Virus record (IMG/VR): IMGVR_UViG_3300026116_000079
Coordinates: 1-31,013 of that record
DNA from: a virus
Strand: one strand, 5' to 3'
DNA length: 31,013 bases
How positions within the stretch are numbered: the first letter of the stretch is position 1; each line of letters opens with the position of its first letter. Positions 1,291-28,803 of the stretch are shown piece after piece. Both the position numbers and the translations under genes were made by a program. The notes beneath the pieces were generated by a model. It did not search any database. It was not told the DNA's origin and saw nothing but the letters and a program-made list of their open reading frames with translations.

Positions 1291-2871
1291 ATGCAGGCGG
1301 CGCAACCACTCCCCTGGGACGTTGCGCCGCCCCCTGCGTTCCCATGGGACGCCCCGACGCCGGCCGCTTCAAAGGAAGAGCGCCGGGCGAAGTTGCGCGA
1401 TTTCAACTATTACCGCGAAAAGTTTTTGAAGGTCCGGCCGCGACAGGGCGGCGAACGCATACCCTTCATTCTCAATAACGCCCAGCGCGTCCTGCACGCC
1501 CGCATAGAAGCGGAGCGCGCAGAATTTGGCATGGTGCGCGCCCTCATTCCCAAAGCCCGACGTATGGGCGTTAGTACGTACATCGGTGGCAGGTACTTTC
1601 ACCAGACGTCTACCATGTTCGGCCGCCGCGCCCAGGTTGTCGCGCACCGATCGGACAGCGCGTCAAACCTGCACAAAGAAATTAAGGAATTTTTTCTAGG
1701 GCTGCCGCATGCCGTGCGGCCTTCTATCAGCGCTTCTAACGCCTATGAGCTGGTTTTTGACGGGCTCAAGTCGCTGTACAAAGTAGCATCGGCAGACGGT
1801 GGCGACATTGGCCGGTCTGACGACTTCCACGACTTGCATCTGTCGGAAGCGGCGTTCTTTGACAACACAGAAGATTTGTCGTCGGGCTTGTTGCAGACGG
1901 TGCAGAACTTGCCGAACACCGAAATTGCGATGGAGAGCACCGGCAATGGGCAGTCGGGCATGTTCTTTAACATGTGCGAAGAAGCCAACCGGCAGCAAAA
2001 TAAAGGACCGTGGCGCATTCACTTCCTGCCCTGGGCTGTCATGCCGGAGTACCGCGAAGCGGTGCCATTTGCGTGGAAGGCGCCGCAAGAATTTGAAGAG
2101 TACGGCAAAATGCACGGCCTAGACCGTGAACAGCTCCATTGGTTTTGGCGCCAGAACTACACCATTGCCACAATGAACGGCGGCCAGCCGGAGAAAATCC
2201 ACCGTTTGACGCGGCAGGAATACCCGTCCGTATACAGCGAATGCTTTATGGCCGATAGCACGCTGGACTTTTTCCCGGCGTCGACCGTGGCCGCAGCTAT
2301 GGCGCGCAAGGCGGCTCCGTCCTCCGGTGCGCTAAAACTGCTTTGCGTCGACCCGGCCGGCGACGGCCAAGACAAGCCTTTCGTTTGCGACCGGCAGGGC
2401 TCCGCCATTGGCGCCCGGGTGTGGGGCGAGCTGACGAACCGCGACTATAACGTACAGGCGGACTGGCTGCGGCAGACCTTCGAACGCTTCGACATGGACG
2501 CGATACTTATTGACGTCACCGGCACCGGCAAAGGCTTGGTCGACGCCACCCGGTTGCGTATGGCCCGGTACGGAGCCGAAAAGGTCGTGGCGGTGAACTT
2601 CGCCTGGGGCGCCATGAATGACACCCTGTACGGAAACCGCCGCTCCGAACTGCATGACAGGTTCCAGCGCTGGCTGCAGGGCGACGTCTCGATGCCAAAC
2701 GACAAGCTACTGCAGGAAGAGGCTTCCGCGTACAAGTGGGGCCTGGGCGGCTGCCGGCGCGACGAAAAGGCCCGGCTGTTCATGACTGCGAAAGAAAAGA
2801 TAAAGGCCGTTATCGGCCGGTCGCCGGACAGGCTTGACGCGTGCGCCGTGTCTATGGCTGTCGACGTCTAA
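1291..2871 (+). CDS. terL: Terminase large subunit (DNA packaging ATPase/nuclease)
   Basis: A 526-aa packaging motor protein. The ATPase half has a Walker-A-like PKARRMGVST (87-96) and a Walker-B/catalytic segment LHLSEAAFF (about 182-190). The RNase-H-like nuclease half has the expected acidic residues in LLCVDPAG (Asp354), ILIDVTG (Asp408) and SPDRLDA (Asp513/Asp516). Length is normal. The N-terminal 25 residues look disordered and carry two copies of a Pro-Trp motif, LPWD (7-10) and FPWD (17-20), that recurs in other proteins of this phage. No small terminase is recognised in the window. The gene follows the holin directly and its last bases overlap the end of a minus-strand small gene. 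Confidence 0.95.
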   Translation: MQAAQPLPWDVAPPPAFPWDAPTPAASKEERRAKLRDFNYYREKFLKVRPRQGGERIPFILNNAQRVLHARIEAERAEFGMVRALIPKARRMGVSTYIGGRYFHQTSTMFGRRAQVVAHRSDSASNLHKEIKEFFLGLPHAVRPSISASNAYELVFDGLKSLYKVASADGGDIGRSDDFHDLHLSEAAFFDNTEDLSSGLLQTVQNLPNTEIAMESTGNGQSGMFFNMCEEANRQQNKGPWRIHFLPWAVMPEYREAVPFAWKAPQEFEEYGKMHGLDREQLHWFWRQNYTIATMNGGQPEKIHRLTRQEYPSVYSECFMADSTLDFFPASTVAAAMARKAAPSSGALKLLCVDPAGDGQDKPFVCDRQGSAIGARVWGELTNRDYNVQADWLRQTFERFDMDAILIDVTGTGKGLVDATRLRMARYGAEKVVAVNFAWGAMNDTLYGNRRSELHDRFQRWLQGDVSMPNDKLLQEEASAYKWGLGGCRRDEKARLFMTAKEKIKAVIGRSPDRLDACAVSMAVDV

Positions 2872-3035
2872 AACTTATCCGGCACAAAGCGGGCGGCGTC
2901 GTCGCGCAACAGCTCTATTATCACGTCATACCCTTCGTTTTTGAACTGTTTCAGAATTTCCGCCCGTTGCTCCATCGTTATCGGTTCGTCCGAACGAAGG
3001 TGAATTTCCCCGATTTTAACACTGTACATCGGCAT
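2868..3035 (-). CDS. Hypothetical protein, about 55 aa
   Basis: A short minus-strand ORF starting MPMYSVKIGEIHL and ending in RFVPDKF, filling the gap between terL and the next promoter. ATG 3035 is preceded by GGGGG at about seven bases; ATG 3029 is an alternative. The stop overlaps the terL stop convergently. Composition (mixed charged, helical) looks like a real small protein rather than a GC-driven shadow, and no other gene explains the 180 bases. No family recognised and no clear promoter of its own. Confidence 0.5.
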   Translation of the reverse strand: MPMYSVKIGEIHLRSDEPITMEQRAEILKQFKNEGYDVIIELLRDDAARFVPDKF

Positions 3036-3056
3036 GCGGCAGCCCCCGGGCGCGTG

Positions 3057-3091
3057 TTGACATGTGCGAATGTGTACAGTATGACATTCGC
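3057..3091 (+). promoter_or_regulatory. Promoter with overlapping operator-like inverted repeat
   Basis: TTGACA (3057-3062), 17-base spacer, TATGAC (3080-3085). A perfect 7-base inverted repeat, GCGAATG (3066-3072) and CATTCGC (3085-3091) with a 12-base gap, covers the spacer and -10 box, as expected for a repressor site. The downstream gene encodes a ribbon-helix-helix protein, so autoregulation is a reasonable inference. Confidence 0.7.
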
Positions 3092-3115
3092 GATATCAAC
3101 CGGAAAGGGCTACAT

Positions 3116-3397
3116 ATGGACGTGATAACCGAAGCGCTCAACGAGGCGAAAAAGGCGAAAGCCAAGAGCAAGCCGAAGGCGAAGAAGAAACCGGCCGCCA
3201 AGAAAAAGGCGCCCGCGAAGCGCAAGCCGGCACCGAAGAAGAAAAAGGCTGTGAAGAAGCCGGCGGCGACGAATGACACCACCCGCGTGGACTTCCGCGT
3301 CCCGAACAAAATCAAGGACAAGCTGTACGCAAAGGCGAAGGCGACCCGGCGCACCATCACAAGCGTGGTTGTGGAACTGTTGGAGAAGATGAAGTAG
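3116..3397 (+). CDS. Ribbon-helix-helix DNA-binding protein with a histone-H1-like lysine-rich tail
   Basis: A 93-aa protein. Residues 1-12 form a short acidic/helical start; residues 13-56 are almost entirely Lys, Ala and Pro in AKKK/PAAKK-type repeats, like the tail of histone H1 or bacterial Hc1/AlgP proteins. Residues 60-93 (TTRVDFRVPNKIKDKLYAKA and on) match an Arc/MetJ/CopG ribbon-helix-helix domain. ATG 3116 is chosen because GGAAAGGG precedes it at good spacing; the upstream start at 3062 lies inside the promoter. It has its own strong promoter with an operator-like inverted repeat and is followed by a terminator. Likely roles, by inference, are specific repression via the RHH part plus non-specific DNA coating via the tail. 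Confidence 0.85.
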   Translation: MDVITEALNEAKKAKAKSKPKAKKKPAAKKKAPAKRKPAPKKKKAVKKPAATNDTTRVDFRVPNKIKDKLYAKAKATRRTITSVVVELLEKMK

Positions 3398-3423
3398 GTT
3401 CCAGCCGATCGGCGGACGTGAAA

Positions 3424-3455
3424 AAGGCCCCCAGGTGACTGGGGGCCTTCGTCGT
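3424..3455. terminator. Bidirectional rho-independent terminator between convergent operons
   Basis: Perfect 11-bp stem AAGGCCCCCAG (3424-3434) and CTGGGGGCCTT (3439-3449) with a four-base loop. On the minus strand a run of five T follows directly; on the plus strand a looser T-rich stretch follows. It separates the RHH gene from the minus-strand structural operon. Confidence 0.9.
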
Positions 3456-3471
3456 TTTGGTCACGGGAAGG

Positions 3472-4146
3472 TCAGAAATGCTTATTCAGTTCGAACATGA
3501 CGACGCTGGTAGCCGGCACGCCTTGCTGTGACGGGGCGTACAGGTACTTTACGTCGGTTGCCCAGCCGGCGGCAATGACGGTCTGCACACCGACGCCGTT
3601 CACCCATTCACTGATACCCCGGCGCTGCATGCCGCCGAAGGTCATATATGGGGTAGAGCTGGCCAGCAAGTTGGCCGGCACCGTGAGAGGCACCGGAGAC
3701 TGCCCGGCCACGGGCGAAGCGGCAGCCGTGGACGGGAAGAAGTTGTAGCCCAGCTTCACCAGTTCGGTGCCGATGAAACGCGAGCCCCCGCCGTTCTGGA
3801 TGGCGCCAGCGCTGGCATTCGTGGTGAACTCATAAGCAATGCCGGCTTCGATCGCAGCGAACCAAGCGCCGTTCCAAAGCTGGTAACCGCCCTGCAGCTT
3901 CAAGGCGCCGCCAGTCGAGAACACGGAACCGTTGATACCGTTCCCGATAACGTCGGCGTTGCTGCCGTCGCCCAGGATGCCAAAGCCAGCGTACCAGCCG
4001 GAACAGTTCTGCGGCGTGCAGCGCGTCGGCGCGGGGGCGTCCAGATAGAAGCCAGCCGGTGCCTTCACCGGCAAGTCGGCTGCATGTGCAGCCATGGGGG
4101 CGAGTACGGCAAGAGCCGCACCGACGATAGCCAAACGTTTCAACAT
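3472..4146 (-). CDS. Outer-membrane beta-barrel protein with signal peptide (Omp25/Omp31-like)
   Basis: A 224-aa exported protein. Residues 1-22 are a classical signal peptide (MLKRLAIVGAALAVLAPMAAHA), then mature ADLPVKAP, a start typical of Rhizobiales Omp25/Omp31 opacity-type porins. The body alternates aromatic and polar residues as in beta-strands and the protein ends in Phe (NKHF), the usual Bam recognition residue. Two cysteines (about 43 and 48) could form a disulfide. ATG 4146 has a strong GGAGGG at good spacing. It lies 27 bases after the preceding gene, so it appears to be the last gene of the portal/GroES/scaffold operon. Possible roles are superinfection exclusion, receptor masking or lysis aid; no direct evidence separates these. 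Confidence 0.88.
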   Translation of the reverse strand: MLKRLAIVGAALAVLAPMAAHAADLPVKAPAGFYLDAPAPTRCTPQNCSGWYAGFGILGDGSNADVIGNGINGSVFSTGGALKLQGGYQLWNGAWFAAIEAGIAYEFTTNASAGAIQNGGGSRFIGTELVKLGYNFFPSTAAASPVAGQSPVPLTVPANLLASSTPYMTFGGMQRRGISEWVNGVGVQTVIAAGWATDVKYLYAPSQQGVPATSVVMFELNKHF

Positions 4147-4173
4147 AGTCCCTCCAGGGTTCAAAAATGAACG

Positions 4174-4359
4174 CTAGCAGGGATAACCGCGTTTCATCGA
4201 ACCCGGCTTTGGCGGGTTCAAAGCTTCGGCCAAATCGGCCTTGGCGTGGTGAATGCGTGCTTTCGCCTGTAGCGTGTTGGCCATTTTACGATGCTCTTCC
4301 GCCGACATGCTACCCTTTGGCTTCTCCGCCTTACTTTTGCCGCCTGATTTCTTCGCCAT
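4174..4359 (-). CDS. Hypothetical protein, 61 aa, basic
   Basis: A small protein with a lysine/glycine/serine-rich start (MAKKSGGKSKAEKPKG) followed by a helical stretch, HRKMANTLQAKARIHHAKADLAEAL, and a proline-rich end. ATG 4359 was chosen because a G-rich ribosome site lies upstream and the protein composition changes there. It sits 13 bases after the 187-aa gene and 27 bases before the outer-membrane protein gene, in the same operon. It may bind DNA or be a small virion component; no family is recognised. Confidence 0.65.
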   Translation of the reverse strand: MAKKSGGKSKAEKPKGSMSAEEHRKMANTLQAKARIHHAKADLAEALNPPKPGSMKRGYPC

Positions 4360-4372
4360 AGTGGCCCCCGGG

Positions 4373-4936
4373 CTACACCCTGATACGCCAGCCGGCACCC
4401 TCGAACGTGGCTTTGGTGCCGTCTTTTGCATCAACGTTGCTTGTGTACTTGCCGTTCAACTCTTTGTTGGCCGGGTCCATGCCGGCATACAGGCTGCGGA
4501 GCTGTTTCCGCATTTCCCTGCGAATGTGGTCGCCCACCGCCTTAGGCCGCGACATGAGCATCGGCCGGTAAGCCTTCCCGGTTTTGTCGGTGCCGGCAAC
4601 AAGGTCAGTGAACAGGCCCGCCATTTCCGGGTCCGTGACTTCTTTCCAACCTTTGTTGTGGGCGTCCGCGATTTCCTGCGGAATGCTGTTGATAATGCGA
4701 AATTCCCAGTCGGGAAATTGCGCTCGCTTCGGAATGTACAGCTTAAGGGGCCGGTCCAGAATGAGGTTGCGAATGATGGCGTCCACGTCCTGGGGTTCGG
4801 TGAAGGGCGACAGCCGCGCCATGGCATCACCGGCACCTTGCGCCGCTGGCACTTCGCCGGGCGGGTTCGGAATGAGGTTCGGCGCGAGCCCGGCAAACGG
4901 ACTTGTGGCGGCTGGGTTAAACGGGCTGTCGGTCAT
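4373..4936 (-). CDS. Hypothetical structural-operon protein, 187 aa
   Basis: I do not recognise this protein. Residues 1-45 are Pro/Ala/Gly rich and probably disordered; residues 50-145 look folded, with a helical segment around IRREMRKQLRSLY; the last 40 residues are mixed beta-like. It is three bases downstream of the scaffold-like gene and in an operon with portal and GroES-like genes, so a role in the virion or in head assembly is likely. No signal peptide or membrane segment. Confidence 0.82.
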   Translation of the reverse strand: MTDSPFNPAATSPFAGLAPNLIPNPPGEVPAAQGAGDAMARLSPFTEPQDVDAIIRNLILDRPLKLYIPKRAQFPDWEFRIINSIPQEIADAHNKGWKEVTDPEMAGLFTDLVAGTDKTGKAYRPMLMSRPKAVGDHIRREMRKQLRSLYAGMDPANKELNGKYTSNVDAKDGTKATFEGAGWRIRV

Positions 4937-4939
4937 GGT

Positions 4940-5581
4940 TTACTTTTTCCCCTTGTTGCGCTGGTAAACGCCATAGTGGCTTTCCAGCGCTTTGGTAATG
5001 AAGGCTTCGCGCTGTTCCTTTGGCGCGTTGGACGAAACGAACTTGTCCGCCGAACGCTTGATTTCCTTCTGAATGTCTGCCGGCGCGTCCGCAAGCTTCG
5101 CCCATGGGCCGGAGCTGGTGCGCCGCATGGTGCGGTTGCTCGCGTCACCTTCGCCGGGACCGTCCGTACGGCGTACAGCGGGCTTCTCTTTGTCCGCCGT
5201 CTTGTCGTCCTCTTCGTCGTCCTCTTCGTTTTCCGCGCTCGCGGCTGCCGGCGCCGTCTTGCCGTCGTTCTCCACAGCCTTGACCAATGCAGCGGCGAAC
5301 AGCTCCGGCGTGGCAAACTTCTTCAAGTCCATGTGCTTGCCCAGCTCAATGGCGCGAGCCGATTTCGCCGGGTCGACGCCAAACCAGTCAAGCTTATTCA
5401 GCTCCGCCTTGATTTCGTCATTGCCGTACGGCGCCGCTTTGGGCGCGGTGGCGACTTCCAGCGCCGCAATGTCCTTTGCGATTTTGCGCGCGGCTTCGGT
5501 GTCGCCATTGGTCACAGCAACGTCAAGCTGGGTTTGCAGTCCGTTGCGCGCTTGCTCGCGCATCATTACGTTAAGGTCCAT
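4940..5581 (-). CDS. Probable head scaffolding protein
   Basis: A 213-aa hydrophilic protein. Residues 1-45 are helical, residues 55-105 are a mixed helical domain containing LDWFGVDPAKSARAIELGKHM, residues 110-130 are a highly acidic Glu/Asp run, and the last 60 residues are basic, ending KGKK. A charged helical rod with a basic C-terminus is the usual form of a phage scaffold, whose end binds the coat protein. Position between the portal/GroES-like genes and a structural unknown supports this. GGAG precedes ATG 5581 by six bases. No scaffold signature can be matched exactly, so the call rests on composition and context. Confidence 0.72.
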   Translation of the reverse strand: MDLNVMMREQARNGLQTQLDVAVTNGDTEAARKIAKDIAALEVATAPKAAPYGNDEIKAELNKLDWFGVDPAKSARAIELGKHMDLKKFATPELFAAALVKAVENDGKTAPAAASAENEEDDEEDDKTADKEKPAVRRTDGPGEGDASNRTMRRTSSGPWAKLADAPADIQKEIKRSADKFVSSNAPKEQREAFITKALESHYGVYQRNKGKK

Positions 5582-5596
5582 GGTAGCTCCCTGGGG

Positions 5597-6094
5597 TTAC
5601 TTTTTGCCGTAGGTGACGCGCTCGCGCACGCCGACGTCTGCCGGCAGCGGTTCCGGCTTCGCGACGGGCGGCTTGTAGTCGAATGCCGGCTTGTCGCTGT
5701 CGTCCCAAATCAGGGTCTTCGGGTCCGGCATCTTGTCGGCAGGAATGATGCCGATCACGTCGCCAAAGCTGGACACGTAGCGAAAGCCGCTGTTGACTTG
5801 CATCTTTCCGCCTTGCATCAGCGTGCCGGCAAACGGACGGATGGCGACCCAGTCACCTATCTTGACGTCCTGCCGGCTAAGTCCGTCACCGTCTTTGTAC
5901 TGGAACGCCAGCGGCCCCATGGCGACGATACGGCCGGCCTGCACGTTGTGCTGCGCCATGTCGCGCACGACGTCGGGGATTTCGATACTGCCCACGTGGG
6001 TGGGCGGCAACGGAATGCGAATGATGACCATGTCCCGCGTGGGCACAACGTGTTCGTGGGGGATTTGGAAATCGTGTACGCCAATGCCGCTCAT
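5597..6094 (-). CDS. GroES-like (Cpn10-fold) co-chaperonin protein
   Basis: A 165-aa protein whose residues 17-118 follow the GroES layout: PTRDMVIIRIP corresponds to the first strand, GSIEIPDVVRDMAQ (35-48) to the mobile loop with its hydrophobic GroEL-binding tripeptide, then AGRIVAMGP, VKIGDWVAI and FGDVIGII to the closing beta-barrel strands. It is longer than GroES because of a Pro-rich tail from residue 120. Phage co-chaperonins such as T4 gp31 adapt host GroEL to fold the capsid protein, which is the likely job here, given portal and scaffold genes on either side. Its ATG overlaps the upstream stop (ATGA), implying coupled translation. Assignment rests on visible pattern, not a search. 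Confidence 0.78.
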   Translation of the reverse strand: MSGIGVHDFQIPHEHVVPTRDMVIIRIPLPPTHVGSIEIPDVVRDMAQHNVQAGRIVAMGPLAFQYKDGDGLSRQDVKIGDWVAIRPFAGTLMQGGKMQVNSGFRYVSSFGDVIGIIPADKMPDPKTLIWDDSDKPAFDYKPPVAKPEPLPADVGVRERVTYGKK

Positions 6095-9307: not shown

Positions 9308-10204
9308 TTACGCAGCTTTTGCCATCGGTGGCAGCCAGTCGGGCGGGGGCGCCAGCTCCACCCCAGGCGCGAGCCGGGAGCCGTTGGGGCGGCGAAAGTC
9401 AATCACCGACAGAAGCGCCTTGCCGGCATCTTCGGCTTTCGGACGCGGCCCTACGGCCCGCGCAGCGGCATCTATGCGCGGCCACCCCAGTTCCACCAGC
9501 CGCTTGCCGTGGTCGCGCAAAGAAGGGTAGTTGTGCACCAGCCACACGAAGCCCAGTGTTGCGTGCTCCGTCACCAGCGCGTTAGGCGGTGCCAGCCCGG
9601 CGATTAGCTCCAAAGCGCTATTCAGTTCGGCCGGCGGCACTGGCGTGGCGCGTTTGGCATAGCTCGGACTGCCGTGCCCGTAGAGTGATTTCAGCGCCCC
9701 GATACACGCCAGCTTCGGCACCGCAAATTCCTGCTTTGCCGTGTTCGCGTCAACGATCGCCAACCCCGCCCGCTGCACCAGCTTGTTAAGTTCCACGGCT
9801 TCTTCGTCGCCGGCCGCGACTTCCGCCATGAACAGCATCCCCTGCGGCACCTTCCGAATGCGGGTGTTGCACGCCAGAAAGATTTCAATCTCGCGCTTAC
9901 GGTCGTGCACGTTGTAAATGTCGCACGGGACGAACAGCTTGCCTGCCCGCTGCGCGCCTTCCCAGCGGTGCCGCCCGTCGACAATGAACAAGGCGCCGTT
10001 GGCTCTTCGCACGACGCGAAGCCGGCCAAACACGGTTAAATCGAAATTGTTTCCGATATCCCGGATAAGGCGCGGATTGCGCGGTGCCAGTGCTTGATAC
10101 GTTGTGTCGATATTCAACGAAGCAACCGGCACGCTTGTGGGCTCCGGCACTTCATCAATAACGACAATCGGTTTAGCTTCCCAAGGGAAAATTGCGGTAC
10201 CCAT
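9308..10204 (-). CDS. ParB/sulfiredoxin-fold nuclease-domain protein
   Basis: A 298-aa protein. After a short N-terminal tail with FPWE (6-9), residues 20-115 show the ParB/Srx-like fold, with VPVASLNIDTTYQ, LRVVRRANGALFIVDGRHRW (the GRHR-type motif) and EGAQRAG. The remaining 180 residues are helical, with a Pro-rich end, as in phage ParB-like proteins of the DUF6551 type. Such proteins bind DNA and/or CTP or act as nucleases; partner genes for plasmid segregation (parA) are not visible. A good sigma70 promoter (10240-10268) and GGAGGT before ATG 10204 indicate independent, probably early, expression inside the structural region. Confidence 0.85.
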   Translation of the reverse strand: MGTAIFPWEAKPIVVIDEVPEPTSVPVASLNIDTTYQALAPRNPRLIRDIGNNFDLTVFGRLRVVRRANGALFIVDGRHRWEGAQRAGKLFVPCDIYNVHDRKREIEIFLACNTRIRKVPQGMLFMAEVAAGDEEAVELNKLVQRAGLAIVDANTAKQEFAVPKLACIGALKSLYGHGSPSYAKRATPVPPAELNSALELIAGLAPPNALVTEHATLGFVWLVHNYPSLRDHGKRLVELGWPRIDAAARAVGPRPKAEDAGKALLSVIDFRRPNGSRLAPGVELAPPPDWLPPMAKAA

Positions 10205-10607: not shown

Positions 10608-11107
10608 CCGGGCTTCTGGTCTGCAGCTCCGCTTCCGGGCGGCCGGTAAACCCGTGTTGGGACCCGTGGCCGCCGGTCTATGACTTCCAGGCGTTCCCAG
10701 ACCGCTCTATGGACCCGCCCCCGGAGCCGCTACCCATGCGGACGGGGCTGGATGCCATCTGGAGCAGCGGCCCGGAAAGCGGCACCACCCAGGTTTTCGC
10801 CAACGCCCCGGCGCCGGCACCCGACGACGCCACGCGGCTGGCCGCCCTGCTTATGACAGTTCCCTACTATTCCAGCCTAGGCAAATCGGCCGCGTTCATG
10901 GGGCCAAACCCGACGGTGAAGCAAACCATAATCGACGTCACCACGATTGTGACGGCGAATTATGACGGCACGTTTATCCCGTCCGGCTCCGTCCGTACAG
11001 TGACGCCGCCCGACGAAGCCACCGAACTGGCTGACGTTTCGAAAACGGACAAGGACGTGTCAGATACTCTTTGGTCGCCGCCTTGGGCTGCGGTGAAAGG
11101 CGTCTAG
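10493..11107 (+). CDS. Structural-operon protein with a zinc-ribbon-like N-terminus, 204 aa
   Basis: ATG 10493 is chosen because the first recognisable motif follows it and the longer frame from 10370 is only a shadow of the 10359 gene. Residues about 19-50 hold CSRCG, LRRERLTGLLVC and a further Cys before DPWPP, a Cys pattern like small zinc-ribbon modules of phage structural genes. Residues 70-204 contain VPYYSSLGKSAAFMGPNP and TIIDVTTIVTANYDGTF, probably a beta domain. It precedes the gp4-like adaptor, so a head-to-tail or decoration role is possible. The ribosome site is weak (GGA), suggesting translational coupling with the overlapping upstream gene. Confidence 0.75.
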   Translation: MAGAHRTAKPSFKPAELWGACSRCGARVRYSTLRRERLTGLLVCSSASGRPVNPCWDPWPPVYDFQAFPDRSMDPPPEPLPMRTGLDAIWSSGPESGTTQVFANAPAPAPDDATRLAALLMTVPYYSSLGKSAAFMGPNPTVKQTIIDVTTIVTANYDGTFIPSGSVRTVTPPDEATELADVSKTDKDVSDTLWSPPWAAVKGV

Positions 11108-17003: not shown

Positions 17004-18964
17004 TTGCGCATTCTCGGGGCTTCGTACCCTTCGCAATCCAGCGGCAGCCCGGCTGTCCAGAAACGCGGGCGCTTCATAATCTCGCGGATTTGCGCCGATC
17101 GTTCTTTCGCCACGGGCGTGGGCGCCCAGGCTAGAATGCTATCGTACACGTCCAACCCCACGTACACGTCCGGCAGCTCCCGTTCTATGTCCGCTTCGGC
17201 TGCCGTGACTAAGTCACGCATCATGCATTGGCAAGAGATTTCCAGCAACGAGCCGCCAAAAGCCTTTTGTCGGAGCATACCGCCGAACTTGGCGCGGAAA
17301 AACGCCATTTCGCCGGTATGGGTAATGTGGGCGGAGTAGTGCGGCACGGCCCGACCTGACGGCAAAATCATCCAGACCGTGCCGTGCGCGTCTTTCTGGA
17401 ATGCCACCTTGCCGGCCGGGAATAGGCGCCCGGGCTGTTCGTAAATTGCAAACTTGAAAGCGTCGCCCAGGTCATACCAAAGCTTGACTAACTTGGGGTT
17501 TGCCCGGCGGTACCCGTCGATATCGGAACGGGCTTTGATTTCGGTTATCTCATGACGTTTTAGTCCGTTCTCGGCGGCGGACCTAATCAGAAACGCCATA
17601 TACGTTTTCCAGCCTAACTGGTAGTTGCCGCCCAGCGTCACGCTTTTAAACGTCTGTCGTTCTTTGGGGTGCGTGTTTTTGGTGGCGTCCCTTGGCAAGT
17701 GCGGCAACGCCTGTAAAGCGTTGTACATGTACAGATCACTGCCGGGCGTCGCAAGAATGCGCAAGCGCTCTTCGTCACCAGCTTGCCACAAGGCAAAACG
17801 CAGCTCCCCCTGGGACGCGTCATTGTCGCACACCGTCCAGCCGTCGGGCGCCACGATGCACCCGCGCAGGCAATCGGTTAGGGCGGTATTGTTGTATTTC
17901 TGCCCGCGTTTCAGCCCTTCTATTACGCTGTCGATTGTCGGGCGCCCCTCTTTGCCGTCGTACCTGCCGGAGGGGCGGGCAATGTTGAACATGTTGGCGC
18001 CTTCGGACGTACCACGCCCGGAACGCGCGCCAAAATAACGGGTGGCATCCTTGTAGTAGCCGCCCACGTGACGGTCTAGCAATGACTGGGCCTTGAGCGG
18101 CGCGGAACCGCCTTCCGCCTGCAGCAGCTCCAGCACCAGCCGGACGTCGGGGTGCAGGTTTTCGTCTGTCAGCTTTTCCGCAACAATGTGTTTCTGCGTG
18201 CTCTCCAGGCCGGCGGCGCGGTTGCCACCGTTCGCCCACTCCAGAATACGCGAGCGCTGCGACAGCTTGGTTACAGCGTTATTCGTCAGCTCCATTAAGA
18301 GCTGGGTGCTTTCCTGTTCGATTTCCTGCCGGCGCAGTGCAATGGCGGTTGCCAGCGCGATATCAATAGGCAGCCCAGTTTCGTTCTTTCGCCAAGTCCG
18401 CTCAAAAATCACGCGCTCGCTATCCGTGAGCGGCGGCAAGCGCTCATCCACGCCTAACAGGCATCGGACGTCCTGCACGTTGTAAGCTAGCAGGTTGCGA
18501 AAGTCGGTTTCATTTTCGATGAAGTTGCCGTGTTTGTCCGGCTTGCACGTCCTCATGACCAGCGCATGGCCCTCCGGGCTCTTGCCCGGGATTTGCAGCG
18601 CCTTGCAAACTTCGTTAAGGCCGCCGGGCAGTGCAAGCGACTGCGCGCGTGCCATGGTGCAGTCAATCTTGGACAGCGGGATTTGCAGGAAGGGGTTTTG
18701 TTTCAGAAGTACGTTGACGTCGAAATTAGCATGATGGGCGACGAACCGGCGGCACTGGCGTATGTCATCGTACAGCGCCGCAATCGGGTGGGTGCCCAGG
18801 TGCGGAAACACGGTGCAGGCGGTTTTCATGACGCCGCGAAACTGCCACACCGCCGTCGTTACCTGCGTCGACGGGCACGCCGCGTACCGTCGCGCACCAG
18901 CCGTCTTAAGGTTGGTGCGCGAGCGGGTCTCAAGGTCACAAGCTAGGTCGTCAGGGTGCAGCAT
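17000..18964 (-). CDS. Family A DNA polymerase with 3'-5' exonuclease
   Basis: A 654-aa replicative polymerase. Exonuclease: DLETRS (Asp10, Glu12), HHANFDVNVL (Asp82) and YNVQDV (Tyr161, Asp165). Polymerase: motif A DNDASQGELRF (Asp382), motif B with R436-x3-K440 and Tyr448, and motif C VYDSILAW (Asp608). Catalytic aspartates are present, but motif C has Y-D-S instead of H-D-E, the E. coli Pol I Phe762 position reads Leu444, and motif A has Gly for Ile. Such variants occur in phage PolA enzymes. There is no 5'-3' exonuclease domain. ATG overlaps the SSB-like stop (TAATG), suggesting coupled synthesis. Confidence 0.93.
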   Translation of the reverse strand: MLHPDDLACDLETRSRTNLKTAGARRYAACPSTQVTTAVWQFRGVMKTACTVFPHLGTHPIAALYDDIRQCRRFVAHHANFDVNVLLKQNPFLQIPLSKIDCTMARAQSLALPGGLNEVCKALQIPGKSPEGHALVMRTCKPDKHGNFIENETDFRNLLAYNVQDVRCLLGVDERLPPLTDSERVIFERTWRKNETGLPIDIALATAIALRRQEIEQESTQLLMELTNNAVTKLSQRSRILEWANGGNRAAGLESTQKHIVAEKLTDENLHPDVRLVLELLQAEGGSAPLKAQSLLDRHVGGYYKDATRYFGARSGRGTSEGANMFNIARPSGRYDGKEGRPTIDSVIEGLKRGQKYNNTALTDCLRGCIVAPDGWTVCDNDASQGELRFALWQAGDEERLRILATPGSDLYMYNALQALPHLPRDATKNTHPKERQTFKSVTLGGNYQLGWKTYMAFLIRSAAENGLKRHEITEIKARSDIDGYRRANPKLVKLWYDLGDAFKFAIYEQPGRLFPAGKVAFQKDAHGTVWMILPSGRAVPHYSAHITHTGEMAFFRAKFGGMLRQKAFGGSLLEISCQCMMRDLVTAAEADIERELPDVYVGLDVYDSILAWAPTPVAKERSAQIREIMKRPRFWTAGLPLDCEGYEAPRMRK

Positions 18965-19830
18965 TACCTACCCGGAAAGCCGCCGGGAGCCGCGAAGGGC
19001 TGTCCGAAGCTGCCCGGAGCCGGGCTAGAAGGGAATGCAGCACCGCCACCGAAACCCGGACCACTCGGGGCCGTCGCCGGTTGCGCAAAGCCTCCCGGGT
19101 TCGTCGGGGCACCGGGAGCCGCGCCCGGCGTGAAACCCCCGGGTTGCCCTCCGAAGCCGCCCGGAGCCGCCCCGGCGCCCGGGAAACCACCCCCGGGCTG
19201 GCCGCCGAAGCCGCCAGCGGCGCCGGAAAAGCCGGTGGGCCGCAAGCCTTGCTGTTCGGCAAGACGCATCAGCTCCGCCCCGCTGACGCTGTTGGCGAAC
19301 ACGATTTCCTCGCCCGGATGGGTGAACACCACGGCATTGAGGTAGAACTTGACGCCGTTGGGCTGGTTTTGCTTCACGGCAGCGGTAACGCCCAGCATGC
19401 AGTAATCGCCGGACTTGACGCCTACCTTGTTCGGCAACTTCACAAGCTGGCCGCCTTGCTGCACCAGCTCAATGCCGGGCGGGTTGCCGCTGGACGCGGA
19501 GAATAGCCAATGCCCCTTGGCAAATTCCGACGTCTTGCCGTCGGGACTGGGCATGTCGCCGTCTGCGATCGGCCAGATAACGGCGTTGGGGTTTTGGGCA
19601 AACGCCTGCAGTTGGCCCTGCAGCAATTTCTGGAACGCCTGCATCGCGCCGGCAAAAACCGGCTCTTGCGACCAATGCCCCGCCGTTTTGGGCACCAGCC
19701 ACATGCCGAAGTAGTTGGGTTTTTGGGTTTGCTGCCCCTTGTAAGTCGTGCTCGGGGTCCACAGATGCCGCATGTCGGCACAACGCGCGTTAAAAATAGA
19801 CGCGCTTTCATATTGTCTCTGATTTGCCAT
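18964..19830 (-). CDS. Single-stranded DNA-binding-like protein (DUF2815-type) with Gly/Pro-rich tail
   Basis: A 288-aa protein. Residues 1-180 look like a phage OB-fold ssDNA-binding domain: ASIFNARCADMRHLWTPSTT at the start, YFGMWLVPK, then NGVKFYLNAVVFTHPGEEIV with the aromatic strand features of these proteins. Residues 205-288 are nearly all Gly, Pro, Phe and Ala (GGFGGQPGGGFPG repeats), a flexible tail ending GGFPGR. This is unlike the acidic DDDIPF tail of bacterial SSB. It coats ssDNA and likely recruits partners. Its own promoter (19881-19909) and the polymerase coupled downstream fit a replication role. Confidence 0.8.
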   Translation of the reverse strand: MANQRQYESASIFNARCADMRHLWTPSTTYKGQQTQKPNYFGMWLVPKTAGHWSQEPVFAGAMQAFQKLLQGQLQAFAQNPNAVIWPIADGDMPSPDGKTSEFAKGHWLFSASSGNPPGIELVQQGGQLVKLPNKVGVKSGDYCMLGVTAAVKQNQPNGVKFYLNAVVFTHPGEEIVFANSVSGAELMRLAEQQGLRPTGFSGAAGGFGGQPGGGFPGAGAAPGGFGGQPGGFTPGAAPGAPTNPGGFAQPATAPSGPGFGGGAAFPSSPAPGSFGQPFAAPGGFPGR

Positions 19831-23339: not shown

Positions 23340-23340
23340 T

Positions 23341-23496: not shown

Positions 23497-23498
23497 TG

Positions 23499-23768: not shown

Positions 23769-23836
23769 AGGCACACCGCCGCGATAATAAGAACGCCGAA
23801 AAACATCAGCGGGAAGGCAATTTTCCAGTCGCTCAT
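23765..23836 (-). CDS. 23-aa membrane microprotein
   Basis: Reads MSDWKIAFPLMFFGVLIIAA and ends VCL: a three-residue polar start and one membrane span. It overlaps both neighbours as ATGA (upstream stop/its start, its stop/next start), and GGAG lies about nine bases before its ATG. Tight overlaps at both ends make it very likely to be translated. Confidence 0.68.
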   Translation of the reverse strand: MSDWKIAFPLMFFGVLIIAAVCL

Positions 23837-24284: not shown

Positions 24285-24286
24285 GA

Positions 24287-24508
24287 TCACGCCCACACCC
24301 GTGCCGGTTCTTGAATGGTGAAAGCGGGCCGCATGTCGACGCCATACTTTGCATCGCAATCGGCTTCGTACTTGCGGGTGGCGTGAATTGCCTTGAGGGC
24401 TTCCGCGAACGCGGCGCGGTAGCTGTGGTTATAGAAGGCGCCGTGCGACTTGATTTCGCGACGGGCGATTTCGTGGGCTTGAAAGAAGATGGTTTGAAGG
24501 GTTGTCAT
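24287..24508 (-). CDS. Hypothetical early protein, 73 aa
   Basis: MTTLQTIFFQAHEIARREIK, then GAFYNHSYRAAFAEALKAIH: helical. ATG 24508 follows the 12-base leader hairpin (24513-24524) and the operator-bearing promoter, so this is the first gene of an early transcript that continues through five small genes to the helicase. No family recognised. Confidence 0.78.
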   Translation of the reverse strand: MTTLQTIFFQAHEIARREIKSHGAFYNHSYRAAFAEALKAIHATRKYEADCDAKYGVDMRPAFTIQEPARVWA

Positions 24509-24512
24509 TTGT

Positions 24513-24524
24513 CGCTCTCCAGCG
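24513..24524 (-). promoter_or_regulatory. Shine-Dalgarno-loop leader hairpin, copy 2
   Basis: Minus strand CGCTGGAGAGCG with GGAG exposed as the loop, four bases before ATG 24508. Confidence 0.8.
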
Positions 24525-24535
24525 GGTGTGCTGTA

Positions 24536-24580
24536 CTTGTACAGCATCCCTAGGGATTGTCTAATCACGAATTGTTACAA
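24536..24580 (-). promoter_or_regulatory. Early promoter with TCCCTAGGGA operator and conserved upstream block
   Basis: Minus strand TAGACA (24558-24563), 16-base spacer, TACAAG (24536-24541). The perfect palindrome TCCCTAGGGA (24547-24556) fills the spacer. Upstream, the block GATTGTCTAATCACG...AATTGTTACA (plus-strand reading) is shared with the promoter near 29446. The sequence from the palindrome to TGCTGTACA matches the plus-strand promoter at 30195. Confidence 0.72.
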
Positions 24581-24582
24581 AC

Positions 24583-24891
24583 TCACTGCAACCTTTCCAT
24601 GTGCGCAAACAAGTACCCGTCGTCAGTCTGCATTACCGTGCAGCGCTCCAGCCGCAACCATTCCGTTGTGTCGGGGTGCGCCGTGAACGCCCGCGTATTG
24701 GGCGCCCCTTCACTTTCGATAATAACGAGGTTGGGGGCGTCGACAGCCGGCAACGCCTGGGCGGCGGCAATAAGGGCGTAGAAGCCGTCCTCCGAAGGCG
24801 GTTGCCGGTAGATGCCCTTGACTTCGTCCGCGAATGGCGAGCCGGCCAGCGCCATGGCGTCGGCAACAGCCCAGACTGGCCAGTACCTCAT
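24583..24891 (-). CDS. Hypothetical protein, 102 aa
   Basis: MRYWPVWAVADAMALAGSPF, GFYALIAAAQALPAVDAPNL and LRLERCTVMQTDDGYLFAHM: a mixed alpha/beta small protein without recognised motif. ATG overlaps the previous stop (ATGA). It is the last gene of the PrimPol operon, before the intergenic promoter region. Confidence 0.78.
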   Translation of the reverse strand: MRYWPVWAVADAMALAGSPFADEVKGIYRQPPSEDGFYALIAAAQALPAVDAPNLVIIESEGAPNTRAFTAHPDTTEWLRLERCTVMQTDDGYLFAHMERLQ

Positions 24892-25238
24892 GATTGCACC
24901 CCCAGGCCCAGCCCGGCCGCGACTTGCAGCACCTGGGCCACAAGCTTTTCAATGCTCATTAGCGGGGCGCCAACCTGCGGCATGCCGATATCCTGAAATT
25001 CGATCGTACTGCCATCCGACAGTTTGCCTTCCCCGCGCGGTATGATTTGCCCCCGGGGCGTGTTAACCAGTATCTGCAGGGCTTCGTGTTTGCTGTGTAC
25101 CAATACGGCGGTATGTGTCACCGCGTACGCAAAATCACGCTGCAGGGCCGCCACGATGGTTTCCACGGGCTGCGCTGCCGGCGCCTGGGCGGGCTCCGCA
25201 ACGGCGGGTACTGGTGGCGGGTCCCATGGAAAGGTCAT
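24888..25238 (-). CDS. Hypothetical protein, 116 aa, with N-terminal FPWD tail
   Basis: Starts MTFPWDPPPVPAVAEPAQAP: FPWD at residues 3-6 then a proline/alanine linker to about 28, then a domain VETIVAALQRDFAYAVTHTA and STIEFQDIGMPQVG, ending in a helix (SIEKLVAQVLQVAAGLGLG). ATG 25238 overlaps the kinase stop as ATGA; the in-frame ATG at 25253 is an alternative. No family recognised. It carries the recurring Pro-Trp motif. Confidence 0.8.
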   Translation of the reverse strand: MTFPWDPPPVPAVAEPAQAPAAQPVETIVAALQRDFAYAVTHTAVLVHSKHEALQILVNTPRGQIIPRGEGKLSDGSTIEFQDIGMPQVGAPLMSIEKLVAQVLQVAAGLGLGVQS

Positions 25239-25687
25239 ACTTGCAAGTCCCATGGAAGGCGCTTGCGCGGTGCTGCAGCTCTAAGATACTCCAAAACCTG
25301 TTCGGCGGTTCCGCGAAACGCGTACAGTTCGTGCGCCCGTTGAGTGTACGTAATCTGCCGGGTCAAGTGTCCGGCAGGAATAGGCACGCCCTCGCGTTTC
25401 AGGTATCGCGCGCTGATGACTTCGTTGGTTTCGAGAATGAACAGAGGCGTAACGCCAAGCCCCATCTTTTGCAAAGGTTTCATGATCTGCGATACGGAGA
25501 ACGGCGTTTCGGTCAACAGCGGCTTGGTTGCAATTGCATGCTGTCGAATGATTGCGTCGACATAGCCCCCGTCCATGTAGTCGTCGTGGCGTACGTAGTC
25601 GTACAGCTCGCGGAGCTGTTCGCAAACCCACGACTTGCCGGCGCCTGGGCAGCCAATGACTAAGTAAACGGGTTGCGCTATTCCCAT
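25235..25687 (-). CDS. P-loop kinase-like protein (AAA_33/polynucleotide-kinase type)
   Basis: A 150-aa protein: GCPGAGKS (Walker A, about residues 12-19), DDYMDGGYVDAI, LLTETPFSVSQIM, and LFILETNEVISARYLKREGV with lid-like Arg residues. This is the layout of small nucleotide or polynucleotide kinases and zeta-like enzymes, which transfer phosphate from ATP. Substrate unknown: a deoxynucleotide or a 5'-OH DNA end would fit the context. The C-terminus reads RLPWDLQV, with the recurring motif. ATG 25687 overlaps the previous gene by 10 bases. Confidence 0.82.
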   Translation of the reverse strand: MGIAQPVYLVIGCPGAGKSWVCEQLRELYDYVRHDDYMDGGYVDAIIRQHAIATKPLLTETPFSVSQIMKPLQKMGLGVTPLFILETNEVISARYLKREGVPIPAGHLTRQITYTQRAHELYAFRGTAEQVLEYLRAAAPRKRLPWDLQV

Positions 25688-25923
25688 GGGAAAGCCTTCC
25701 TTAAATACGTGGCGTCAATTGGGTACGTCACGGCGCCGCCGACGTCGCGCCACTTTATTCCCATGGTAGCCTGGGCTTCGTCCACGGAAACGACGGTCCC
25801 GGGCTCGGGGCTGTTGCCGGAATAGACGGTGTCGCCCACGGCATAAGGGCACGGTCCCGGAAGTGGCGAAGGTGCGTCGCCCCAAGGGAACACTGTATCC
25901 CGTCCATTGCCGCTTTCCCGCAT
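25678..25923 (-). CDS. Hypothetical KOW/SH3-like protein, 81 aa, Pro-Trp motif at both ends
   Basis: Residues 10-20 read TVFPWGDAPSP, residues 28-75 form a small beta-barrel-like sequence (YAVGDTVYSGN, GTVVSVDEAQATMGIKWRD, AVTYPIDATYLRKA), and the protein ends AFPWE. The start at ATG 25923 has GGGA at eight bases; the ATG at 25941 has its GGAG too close. Both ends carry the phage's recurring motif, as TerL does with two. It could act as a small adaptor. Confidence 0.75.
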   Translation of the reverse strand: MRESGNGRDTVFPWGDAPSPLPGPCPYAVGDTVYSGNSPEPGTVVSVDEAQATMGIKWRDVGGAVTYPIDATYLRKAFPWE

Positions 25924-25953
25924 GCGCAGATCCCGTCCCATTCTCCGTTAGCG

Positions 25954-26256
25954 TCAGTGGCCACGGTTCAAGATGGCGCATACTTGCACAGCGTCCACCC
26001 CCGCTTCTACCCTACAAACACGAAAACCCATGCGTACCAAACCCATGCGTACCCCGGTTGCTGTCTTGACGGGGCGTTGAAATATGCTCTTGCCGTCCTT
26101 TTCCGATACATAGAACAGCGGTTCGGCACCCGAAGCGGGGTCCAGCAAATCAGCGGCAGCGGTAAAGACCGCGTCGGCGCGGCTGGCTTGGTGTTCGGTA
26201 CCGCAAGCCATAGCGCGCAACAGCTTCGCAATAGTTTTTGGATCGTTCATTGCCAT
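25954..26256 (-). CDS. Hypothetical protein, 100 aa
   Basis: MAMNDPKTIAKLLRAMACGT, then VFTAAADLLDPASGAEPLFY, and MGFRVCRVEAGVDAVQVCAI: an alpha-helical start and a beta end. ATG 26256 overlaps the PrimPol end by 10 bases and is preceded by the covarying leader hairpin (26260-26271) with GGAGA. No family recognised; close coupling suggests a PrimPol partner. Confidence 0.76.
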   Translation of the reverse strand: MAMNDPKTIAKLLRAMACGTEHQASRADAVFTAAADLLDPASGAEPLFYVSEKDGKSIFQRPVKTATGVRMGLVRMGFRVCRVEAGVDAVQVCAILNRGH

Positions 26257-28304
26257 GGTAGCTCTCCAGCTTTGGTTACGGGCGGTACGATCGCCCAGGG
26301 CATCGTTAATTCTTGTCTTACGCTTCCCGTCGGTGCGTACACCGCCAGAAATGGCGTCGCGCGTATTGTACGGAAATGACCGGAATTTAGCAAGCTTGCG
26401 AGCCCGTCCTTTGCAAACATTTTTTGGGCCGCGTCCCGGCTAACTACGTACGCGGGTGGCTCGCCTTGGACCCCGTGGCCAATATCGGCGGCAACGGACG
26501 AAAAGCTGACAATGTTTCCAGCTCGTAAAGCGTCCATACCCGCGCCGGCTCCGGGCAGCATCGCCGCCAGCCGAACGACTTGGTTTTGCTCTCGTTGCTG
26601 GGGAGTGTCGACGACTTCACGCTTAAACACATTAACGGTTGTGGTACGGCCCTTACTGTCAGTACCGTAGTTTTCAGATACCACTTTTCCAACATAGCTT
26701 TTTGCCTTTGGTGCGCCGCGAGCCTTGCCGCAGTCGACTGAAATCCGGTCCTGAGTGCCGGCGGTGACGCGGTACATAAACCCGCTATTGCCGGACTTGG
26801 CACCGTTGCCTTTTTGGAACGCTTCTTCATTGCCCATGGGCAAATGGTCTGTGACGATTTCAGCGGCGCCGGTACGTCGCGCCACGTTCTTGAGCACGAA
26901 CATTGCTTTTAGAACGCTCTCCGTATCGTTGTCCGCGAAGCACAGGCCGGACGCGCCCCACGTGTCCACCACGATAAGGTCCACGCGCATACCCATTGCA
27001 GCCATCGCTTGAACCTGGGCGACGCATTGCTGTTCGAATGATGCTCCGTCGACATGACGCACAAGGTGGAAGCGGGCGGCCAGTTCTCTAGCGTTCGGCT
27101 CTTGCCGGAGCAAATGGCGTACGCGTCGTTCTGTGCCGTAATCGTCCTCAGCGGCAATCCATAGGACATGACCAGCCGTACGTTCGACGTCGGCATCAAG
27201 CCACGCGCGGCCTGTAAGACAAGAAATCGCCAAGTCTGTAACGACGGTAGACTTTCCGGCTCCACTATGGCCGGTAAAGAAGTGCACTTCACCACATAGG
27301 ACCCGCTGATATAGTAACCATGGTAGTTCATCGGTGTTGTCCTCCAATGAAATTTCAAAGCCAGTGCGCGCCAACAGACTGGGGTGCGTCTGCGCGTCCT
27401 GCAGCCCTTGCACAAGCGTACGGCGTGACATGATGGCGCCCATAATCAAGTTGCCGCGCAGCACTGGCAGGGCATCTTGACGCGCTATCTCTTCGCCTAG
27501 GGTTCGCCCGCCTACGCCTTCTTCCAACGAGTGGCCGGCGCTAACTATCGCCTCTTCGATTTCCTGCCGCGTGCACATGCCGTTCTGTTCGGCAAACTTG
27601 AGCACGCCCACCAGCGCGAAGATTGTAGACCCGCGCCCCTCCGTACGCCCTATCAGCTCTTGCTTTAGAAGCCCCAGGTAACGCATGGCGGCGTCGCGGC
27701 CCGCTTGCCATTCGTCCTGGGTGCGCGGCTTCGCTTCTTCTAACTCTTCGGCGCTGGCGGTTTCGTGGTCTGCGCTAAATCGGAGGCTTGTTCCGGCGCG
27801 TGCGGGAACGTCCGCCAGTACTCGCTGCAAGTCAGCCACACTGAGGCGCGGCCAGTCACTATCCCAATTCTCCCATTCGTACGGCTGTCCAGTGTCTTTA
27901 TGAATACCAAACGCGACAAATTGCCCTCCCATCAATTGGAATTTTTCACCGTCGGGAAACGTAAACGTACGTCCTGTTACGGGTGCGTCCGTGAGATAGA
28001 ACGGTATGAGGAAACGCGGCCGACGCCCCCAACGGACTGGAATGTTAGGACCCAGCGTTTGCCTGAATGCCATAAGCAATCGGGATGCTGTGTCGGGATT
28101 GGCGTTATCAACGTCAAAAGCGGTAAGTCCTCCGTCCCCACATCTAAGCCCCACACTACCGGCGCCTGGGTGGGGTATTGGGCTTGTCCAGACATTCCAG
28201 CCCTCTCCTATTGGTGCTTTGCTGCCGCGAGCAATGGCTAGGGGAAACAAACCGCGCTGTTGCGCTGCCGTCCAGAACTCTTGTATAGTCGTCGGGAGAG
28301 GCAT
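26247..28304 (-). CDS. PrimPol-type primase fused to a RecA-like (AAA_25) helicase
   Basis: A 685-aa replication initiator. Residues 1-150 are a bifunctional primase-polymerase domain: FPLAIARGSKAPIGEGWN, AFDVDNANPD (catalytic D-x-D at 64-66), RWGRRPRFLIPF and LMGGQFVAFGIH. Residues 330-520 are a RepA/DnaB-like RecA domain: GHSGAGKST Walker A (344-352), LIVVDTWGAS Walker B, then TDHLPM. The rest contains a C-terminal region ending GELPWQ, the recurring motif. It would prime and unwind at the origin. A plus-strand RNA candidate (28296-28370) is antisense to its start; the ribosome site is weak (TGGA). Confidence 0.93.
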   Translation of the reverse strand: MPLPTTIQEFWTAAQQRGLFPLAIARGSKAPIGEGWNVWTSPIPHPGAGSVGLRCGDGGLTAFDVDNANPDTASRLLMAFRQTLGPNIPVRWGRRPRFLIPFYLTDAPVTGRTFTFPDGEKFQLMGGQFVAFGIHKDTGQPYEWENWDSDWPRLSVADLQRVLADVPARAGTSLRFSADHETASAEELEEAKPRTQDEWQAGRDAAMRYLGLLKQELIGRTEGRGSTIFALVGVLKFAEQNGMCTRQEIEEAIVSAGHSLEEGVGGRTLGEEIARQDALPVLRGNLIMGAIMSRRTLVQGLQDAQTHPSLLARTGFEISLEDNTDELPWLLYQRVLCGEVHFFTGHSGAGKSTVVTDLAISCLTGRAWLDADVERTAGHVLWIAAEDDYGTERRVRHLLRQEPNARELAARFHLVRHVDGASFEQQCVAQVQAMAAMGMRVDLIVVDTWGASGLCFADNDTESVLKAMFVLKNVARRTGAAEIVTDHLPMGNEEAFQKGNGAKSGNSGFMYRVTAGTQDRISVDCGKARGAPKAKSYVGKVVSENYGTDSKGRTTTVNVFKREVVDTPQQREQNQVVRLAAMLPGAGAGMDALRAGNIVSFSSVAADIGHGVQGEPPAYVVSRDAAQKMFAKDGLASLLNSGHFRTIRATPFLAVYAPTGSVRQELTMPWAIVPPVTKAGELPWQ
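26260..26271 (-). promoter_or_regulatory. Covarying Shine-Dalgarno-loop hairpin
   Basis: Minus strand AGCTGGAGAGCT: differs from the other copies at the first and last bases (C-G changed to A-T), keeping the four-pair stem and the GGAG loop before ATG 26256. The matched change supports a real RNA fold. Confidence 0.6.
28260..28289 (+). promoter_or_regulatory. Promoter for the antisense RNA candidate
   Basis: Plus strand TTGCGC (28260-28265), 18-base spacer, TATAGT (28284-28289). The -10 is a five-of-six match. It lies inside the 5' end of the PrimPol gene, on the opposite strand. Confidence 0.5.
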
Positions 28305-28370
28305 TCACGGTCCAGAACGTGGCTGTTTCTTTGAACCCCTGCAAGTCGCGACACTTGCGGGGGTTTTTCT
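28296..28370 (+). ncRNA. Candidate antisense RNA over the PrimPol-helicase start
   Basis: About 75 bases from the plus-strand promoter at 28260-28289 to a terminator (28334-28370). It is complementary to the PrimPol ATG (28302-28304), its weak ribosome site and its whole 67-base leader. Stem AACCCCTGCAAGT (28334-28346) with ACTTGCGGGGGTT (28353-28365), one wobble, then TTTCTTTT. No plus-strand gene needs a terminator here, which makes an RNA product the simplest explanation. Antisense control of a replication initiator is known from plasmids (CopA, RNAI-type); its use here is inference. Confidence 0.55.
28334..28370 (+). terminator. Rho-independent terminator, plus strand
   Basis: 13-bp stem with one GU pair, loop CGCGAC (28347-28352), T-run on the plus strand only (28364-28368 and 28370-28373). 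The minus side has no T-run. Confidence 0.82.
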
Positions 28371-28371
28371 T

Positions 28372-28803
28372 TTAGTCCCAGGGGAGCGCCTTTGGCAAGA
28401 CACCATTACTAGCGGTTACTTTTTGTTCCTGCCCCAAGACAAGCGCGGCCGGCAGCTCGTATTTTGCCAGCGACGCCCTTAGCACCTGAATTTCTTCGAA
28501 CTGCACTTTTACACGTTCGTACAGCCCGTCCAGTTCGGCTTTCATCGTGACATTCGCCGTACGCAAGTCGGACAGCTCCGAATTTGTCGCCTGCAGTTTG
28601 CTGCGCCGATGTTTTTCGCAATTGCGCAAGCCGAATGAATTACTGTCGGCATGGCCTAGCGCAATCTTCTTCGTCACGAAAATGGAAAAGCTTTCACTGC
28701 ACACGCTGCACAAGCGCGTGTATTCGACAAGATTTTTGTATGTCTTGCCCTTGACGACTTTAGGGCCGTCGGCTGTACGCGCCCACCCGTCACGATTTTG
28801 CAT
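28372..28803 (-). CDS. Hypothetical zinc-finger coiled-coil protein, 143 aa, C-terminal LPWD
   Basis: Starts MQNRDGWARTADGPKVVKGK; residues about 30-68 contain CSVC...CEKH, a possible zinc knuckle, then a coiled coil of about 50 residues (SELSDLRTANVTMKAELDGL), and a tail ending GVLPKALPWD. ATG 28803 overlaps the upstream stop (TGATG). The frame extends to 28962, but that part is the shadow of the membrane gene. It may be a DNA-binding or adaptor protein; ends exactly with the recurring motif. Confidence 0.8.
   Translation of the reverse strand: MQNRDGWARTADGPKVVKGKTYKNLVEYTRLCSVCSESFSIFVTKKIALGHADSNSFGLRNCEKHRRSKLQATNSELSDLRTANVTMKAELDGLYERVKVQFEEIQVLRASLAKYELPAALVLGQEQKVTASNGVLPKALPWD

Follow-up and report, generated by a model that had tools for sequence, protein, structure and literature searches.

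On the evidence of sequence comparison, a hydrophobic residue followed by Pro-Trp and then by an acidic residue or the C-terminus is a short linear motif under protein-level selection, carried on the flexible ends of unrelated DNA-handling proteins in one clade of phages. We consider it probable that the motif acts as a docking tip of the kind found on SSB tails, gathering its carriers at one pocket-bearing partner. The whole stretch of DNA analysed here (the window) is the 31,013-base virus record IMGVR_UViG_3300026116_000079; related phages are about 52 kb long. Scans for the large terminase subunit (TerL) returned overlapping sets of relatives, and the survey of motif carriers covered the window and 35 relatives, complete or partial. 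Genes in the window and its relatives were called with a home-made, self-trained caller, and some N-termini are uncertain. One relative, IMGVR_UViG_3300043252_000011 (G025, 98,428 bases), is about twice the usual length, and its motif positions equal those of the 51,936-base genome G026 at a constant offset of 267. G025 may have been concatenated, or joined to host sequence, during assembly.

A preliminary description of the window had listed nine copies of a tetrapeptide, [F/L]-P-W-[D/E/G/Q], and all nine translate as LPWD, FPWD, FPWE, FPWG or LPWQ. The class fits these copies and proved too narrow across relatives, where the first and last residues vary more. On the plus strand, TerL (526 aa, 1291-2871; phrog_2 terminase large subunit, E=1.7e-18) has an N-terminal extension with two copies, LPWD at 1309-1320 and FPWD at 1339-1350. 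All other carriers in the window are on the minus strand. A ParB-like/DUF6551 protein (9308-10204; phrog_1033, E=2.3e-11, with PF20188 just below the cut-off) has FPWE at 10178-10189, near its N-terminus. A 116-aa protein (24888-25238), the window member of family FAM24/67, consists of an N-terminal motif (FPWD, 25221-25232), a variable linker and a small alpha/beta domain. LPWD (25247-25258) lies near the C-terminus of a P-loop kinase-like protein (25235-25687) that matches AAA_22 and similar families below the cut-off. A small KOW-like protein (25678-25893) carries the motif at both ends and reads (M)FPWGD...KAFPWE*, with FPWG at 25879-25890 and FPWE at 25681-25692; its start is likely the GTG at 25893, in line with the starts of its relatives, and not 25941 or 25839. 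Two further proteins end in the motif. These are a PrimPol-AAA helicase (685 aa, 26247-28304; PF09250 and PF13481 above the cut-off) with the tip LPWQ at 26250-26261, and a zinc/coiled-coil protein (28372-28962) with the tip LPWD at 28375-28386. Family look-up of the 116-aa, KOW-like and zinc proteins, and of a 156-aa protein (FAM18) discussed below, gave no match reaching the cut-off.

We followed the motif through related TerL proteins. The 113 readable loci reduced to 54 distinct N-terminal extensions with identities down to 61%, and Pro-Trp is present in 54 of 54 (once in 38, twice in 15 and three times in one). In alignments of the extension, P18 and W19, which belong to the second copy in the window, form the conserved part, while the spacer length and the remaining residues drift. 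The residue after Trp is E in 30 copies, A in 12, Q in 7, D in 6, T in 6 and S in 5, with a few others. Because this residue is often A, T or S, an acid is not essential in TerL. The next TerLs in the collection, at 29-34% identity, lack the motif (0 of 5). Five annotated phages served as an outgroup (Pseudoalteromonas H6/1, Rhodoferax P26218, Burkholderia Bcep781 and two podoviruses from spring water), and none of their 254 called proteins has a terminal hydrophobic-Pro-Trp.

The other carriers show similar conservation. The motif occurs in 29 of 30 members of the 116-aa family, a count that includes two members in which it lies upstream of a wrongly called start. P12 and W13 are among only five positions conserved overall in the joint alignment of 28 FAM24/67 sequences, and a profile alignment of the family with its counterpart in a divergent subclade (hhalign 94.9%, E=4.6e-8) includes the columns of the motif itself. 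Seven of nine ParB-like proteins have the motif, the remaining two being called as fragments. At least one copy is found in all 12 KOW-like proteins, either end of which can carry it. Pro-Trp lies within the last 12 residues of 22 of 25 PrimPol-helicases and near the C-terminus of 24 of 24 zinc/coiled-coil proteins. The divergent subclade has a second, AAA_25 helicase with a C-terminal motif in six of six cases. Among accessory proteins, the methylases of two N6_N4 groups and one of Dam type all end in ...PWE, and the motif is also on the kinase of the window and several small proteins. The motif is thus N-terminal in TerL, the ParB-like protein and the 116-aa family and C-terminal in the PrimPol-helicase and the zinc/coiled-coil protein. 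Free loss among related phages, which the preliminary description had named as a sign against function, is not what the TerL and 116-aa families display. Its proposal of a docking motif in tails is strongly supported at the level of sequence by conservation in unrelated families, by occurrence on different methylases and by the fixation of Pro-Trp alone within drifting linkers.

We compared the frequency of the motif with chance. Terminal zones were defined as the N-terminal 25 and C-terminal 20 residues of each protein, the pattern as [FLMYW]PW[DEQG], and within-protein shuffles served as the control. The window has 8 copies in these zones versus 0.075 in shuffles (maximum 2 in 200 shuffles), an enrichment of about 100-fold; the ninth copy, at the KOW-like N-terminus, is absent from this count because the start chosen by the caller is shorter. 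For 17 relatives, 40 copies were observed versus 1.84 in shuffles (maximum 6), a roughly 20-fold figure that is a description and not a P value because related proteins were counted as independent. The mirror motif [DE]WP[FLMYW] did not occur in the same test. In the relatives, PW[DE] occurs at 0.98 per 1000 aa in the first 25 residues, 0.57 in the last 20 and 0.05 in the interior. The tetrapeptide is therefore not equally common elsewhere in the genome; equal frequency is what the preliminary description had said would count against a motif. When each of the 400 dipeptides was scored, relative to composition, by the number of family ends at which 70% or more of the members keep it, PW ranked first, with 8 ends. 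One of these eight ends, a PPWxxxKGV tail of a structural-region protein, may be unrelated to the docking motif. In about 30 of 33 relatives, this conserved protein (10709-11107, plus strand in the window) has that end or a similar one. Elsewhere in the window, a clade-conserved GroES/Cpn10-like protein (5597-6094, minus strand; PF00166 E=0.0019, just below the cut-off) adjoins the portal gene and is possibly a head-assembly co-chaperonin.

The composition of the motif differs between the two ends. Across relatives the first residue is F, Y, M, L or W and sometimes P, V, A or G. The last is mostly E or D near N-termini; in the FAM24/67 and ParB-like families, 34 of 34 N-terminal copies have Glu or Asp directly after Trp. 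In C-terminal copies, the residue after Trp can be E, D, Q, S, G, A or N, or Trp can be the last residue. Taken with the TerL tally, these counts indicate that an acid or a free carboxylate near Trp is usual and not absolute.

We compared the motif with known systems in which short peptides gather proteins on DNA. The tip of bacterial SSB (SSB-Ct) reads ...DDDIPF-COO-; its proline and aromatic residue fill a hydrophobic pocket, and its acidic groups contact the basic rim. More than 17 partners use this tip as a hub, and in RecO its Pro-Phe sits in a pocket (PMC7913777). The Pro-Trp tag shares with SSB-Ct a short hydrophobic-Pro-aromatic tip ([FLMYW]-P-W in most copies) that includes an acid and terminates a flexible linker, and the gathering of many DNA-metabolism proteins by SSB-Ct is what we propose for the tag. 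It differs in having Trp in place of Phe at the extreme C-terminus, in occurring at N-termini too, and in allowing residues after the aromatic; many copies are N-terminal or are followed by one to nine residues. It is also borne by many clients and not by the OB-fold SSB of the clade, which lacks PW tips. No Asp run precedes the tip, the flanks being enriched in Pro, Glu and Lys, and an IPF-type tip is found in 0 of 2105 clade proteins. Because several defining features of SSB-Ct are missing, we classify the motif as a variant of SSB-tip-type docking and not as a member of SSB-Ct. The acidic C-terminal tails of T7 gp2.5 and gp4 are another parallel, in which SSB and helicase share a tail logic, and a PolA-type polymerase is present here too. 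The gp4 tail (...STDWSNDTDF) has no Pro-Trp, however, and the clade tag is also on TerL, methylases and other proteins. Like the beta-clamp binding motif, in which many partners carry one short motif read by one hub (PMC11139829), the tag is shared by many partners, but its sequences lack the Gln/Leu pattern of the QLxLF-like consensus, and no clamp was recognised among the proteins scanned. A literature search for a known name of the peptide (FPWE, LPWD, MPWE and so on) returned only acronyms and one eukaryotic peroxisomal paper, on PEX39, in which a "PWE motif" is reportedly described.

Outside the clade, a DNA scan for K-M-P-W-E-stop over 2.9 million viral contigs gave at least 120 stretches. 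Of the 120 matches listed, 111 are the ends of open reading frames of at least 60 aa; the permuted control K-M-W-P-E-stop gave 14 matches and no such end. Among the matches listed, 85 are TOPRIM primase-helicases of unrelated AT-rich phages and three come from the clade of the window; other carriers include a 130-aa protein ending in FPWEKMPWE, a DUF669 protein and a DUF3127 protein. Proteins of OB type are, with the primase-helicases, the abundant bearers of KMPWE ends. Among homologous primase-helicases, the tip is EVPF in Cellulophaga phi10:1, EIPF in Flavobacterium elemoA and DVPF in snork9-1. Judged from these homologous ends, MPWE and E/D-I/V-P-F tips stand in for each other at one primase-helicase tail position. 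The statement in the preliminary description that it knew of no described motif of this form should be qualified in view of the resemblance to the SSB tip and this exchange with I/V-P-F, by which the motif looks like a variant of a docking tip already known in kind. In three KMPWE genomes that we fetched (G039, G040 and G043), a small SSB-like neighbour of the helicase ends in DDLPF. A PW tip and DDLPF thus coexist in these phages and may bind different pockets. Unlike the clade of the window, these three genomes have the tag on few or no other proteins. The protein of about 130 aa with two tandem copies (FPWEKMPWE) is metalloprotease-like (HExxH-like, with a weak match to Peptidase_M90) and was found at L342:13322-13714 (minus strand) and in 11 further contigs of unrelated AT-rich phages.

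These comparisons suggest how the tag could work. M/F/Y-P-W would fill a hydrophobic pocket on the partner, and the acidic part would be played by the side chain of the following Asp or Glu or, at a C-terminus, by the carboxylate of the chain itself. Tethered by their long linkers, the packaging motor, the PrimPol-helicase, the methylases, the ParB-like protein, the kinase and the small adaptors would be brought together on replicating phage DNA, at a single partner that has the pocket. The KOW-like protein, with its two copies, could cross-link. As candidates for the partner we rank the core of the phage SSB or another conserved replisome protein first, a host protein second and the FAM24/67 domain third. 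Besides the SSB core, the replisome candidates are PolA, the 156-aa FAM18 protein and the exonuclease. PolA, SSB, the exonuclease and the FAM18 protein are encoded in nearly all genomes, and an SF2 helicase and VRR-NUC less completely. Because the core replication genes are in nearly all genomes, gene presence or absence is uninformative about the partner.

The clade SSB is a candidate partner with an unusual tail. In the window, a gp2.5/Enc34-type SSB (18964-19830, minus strand; PF10991 E=3.7e-10) consists of an OB domain and an uncharged linker of about 87 aa ending in GGFPGR, and it has neither the motif nor an acidic tail. SSB tails of the clade average about 75 aa, are made of G, P, A, Q, S, N, F and T with 0.13 acidic residues each, and usually contain one basic residue, at the end; 27 of 30 end in [FW]xxR. 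An independent set of tails from further contigs agrees in being neutral with a basic tip. Although their domain matches PF10991, the clade SSBs thus lack the acidic tail of the gp2.5/Enc34 family, and an acidic tail has been called a characteristic feature shared by all SSBs of prokaryotes and phages (PMC5686142). We considered an inverted arrangement because the SSB lacks the acidic-aromatic tip that its likely partners carry. In this specific form of the docking explanation, the SSB core would be the receptor and the tip would have moved to the clients, leaving the SSB with a neutral linker and [F/W]xxR. The non-acidic tails and the sharing of one clade by tagged clients and an SSB without an acidic tail argue for such an inversion, but one clade is a single evolutionary correlation and the SSB-like neighbour in the KMPWE phages retains DDLPF, and we regard the inversion as possible and somewhat doubtful. 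Two further observations concern these tails. In the divergent subclade (G018-G023, L177-L194), NPF[AS] occurs near the N-terminus of FAM21 and, in the helicase, ahead of the PWE tip. Many SSBs of the main clade have a similar end, NPFA[PG]R, and NPF[AS] is perhaps a second tail motif. An in-frame SSB-methylase neighbour pair was seen in one instance.

The partner could instead be a host protein that other phages exploit too. The KMPWE ends in unrelated phages are consistent with this, and host proteins that bind the SSB tip provide known pockets (PMC7913777). However, the clade of the window is GC-rich, whereas the phages with KMPWE ends are AT-rich and have a helicase whose closest counterparts are in Cellulophaga and Flavobacterium phages. 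Because base composition and helicase affinities differ, the two groups probably have different hosts, and we judge a host partner unlikely. Genome scans for the host with TerL and with an exported porin-like protein of the window (3472-4146, minus strand) gave no match, and for the latter no relative was found in genome contigs. The N-terminus of this protein, ...AADLPVKAP, is of a kind that we take to be typical of Hyphomicrobiales outer-membrane proteins, a hint at the host.

Less probable still is that the FAM24/67 domain is the receptor, its own N-terminal motif driving self-assembly or self-inhibition. The family is present in both subclades, its gene lies among the motif genes, and the AlphaFold2 (AF2) model of the window protein (mean pLDDT 90.8) has a confident small alpha/beta domain without recognised relatives: the best PDB hit in a fold search had Z 3.3 (none reached Z 5), a search of a viral library with the domain gave nothing at E<=0.001, and a PDB sequence search with the 116-aa and 156-aa proteins gave no convincing match. 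In this model the N-terminal arm is moderately confident and featureless and is predicted better than the linker that follows (pLDDT 75, then 65). However, in an AF2 model of a second member, in which the motif follows ten residues, the arm is flat at 78/79 with no peak at the motif.

We also weighed explanations without docking. Descent alone, or recombination copying short tails between genes without function, would fit the kinase and 116-aa copies, which lie 26 bases apart with near-identical DNA, and the tandem TerL copies seen in some cases. Against it, Pro-Trp is kept while neighbours and spacer lengths shift over 61-85% identity, codons differ between copies, the tag is on different methylase families and frequent loss in relatives was not observed, making this explanation very improbable. 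The preliminary description had argued for selection on the protein from the palindrome beneath the peptide, and the CCATGG core is indeed broken in four of the nine window copies (1309, 10178, 25879 and 28375). Across 177 copies, 36 distinct 9-mers and all four Pro codons are used; the retention of Pro-Trp while codons, spacers and neighbours vary strongly supports that argument. A DNA-level feature, either the palindrome as a regulatory site or a gene-overlap start signal that happens to read Pro-Trp, is hardly credible: in the window the kinase and a 100-aa protein do start at ATG codons (25687 and 26256, respectively) that lie inside the Pro-Trp codons (CCATGG) of the preceding gene, but CCA is used in only 32 of 124 C-terminal copies, with the ATG starting a called gene in only 9 of these, N-terminal copies are spread over all Pro codons, and the bases are not uniform across copies, so that codon tallies refute it as a general cause.

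It is a tentative possibility that the clade has a plug-and-socket code of its own, encoded by the phage and private to it, with the SSB hub inverted: the acidic-aromatic tip would be spread over the packaging motor, the replicative helicase, the methylases and the adaptors, and replication, modification and packaging would be physically coupled at one socket. To our knowledge, coupling of terminase to the replisome is known mainly from T4. According to an excerpt of one account (PMC9026906), the T4 TerL gp17 binds the SSB gp32 and gp55 of the clamp-coupled late transcription system, a likeness in that packaging is coupled to replication; the excerpt describes no shared tetrapeptide tag. The clade also shows that an SSB family can lack the acidic tail regarded as universal, and the tag offers a possible explanation for this. 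The tag can be read from sequence and would mark phage proteins meant to act together, mostly of unknown function; it would also connect the terminase with the replisome. Finding the socket would mean that one interaction joins replication, modification and packaging, and further phages could then be annotated by means of the tag.
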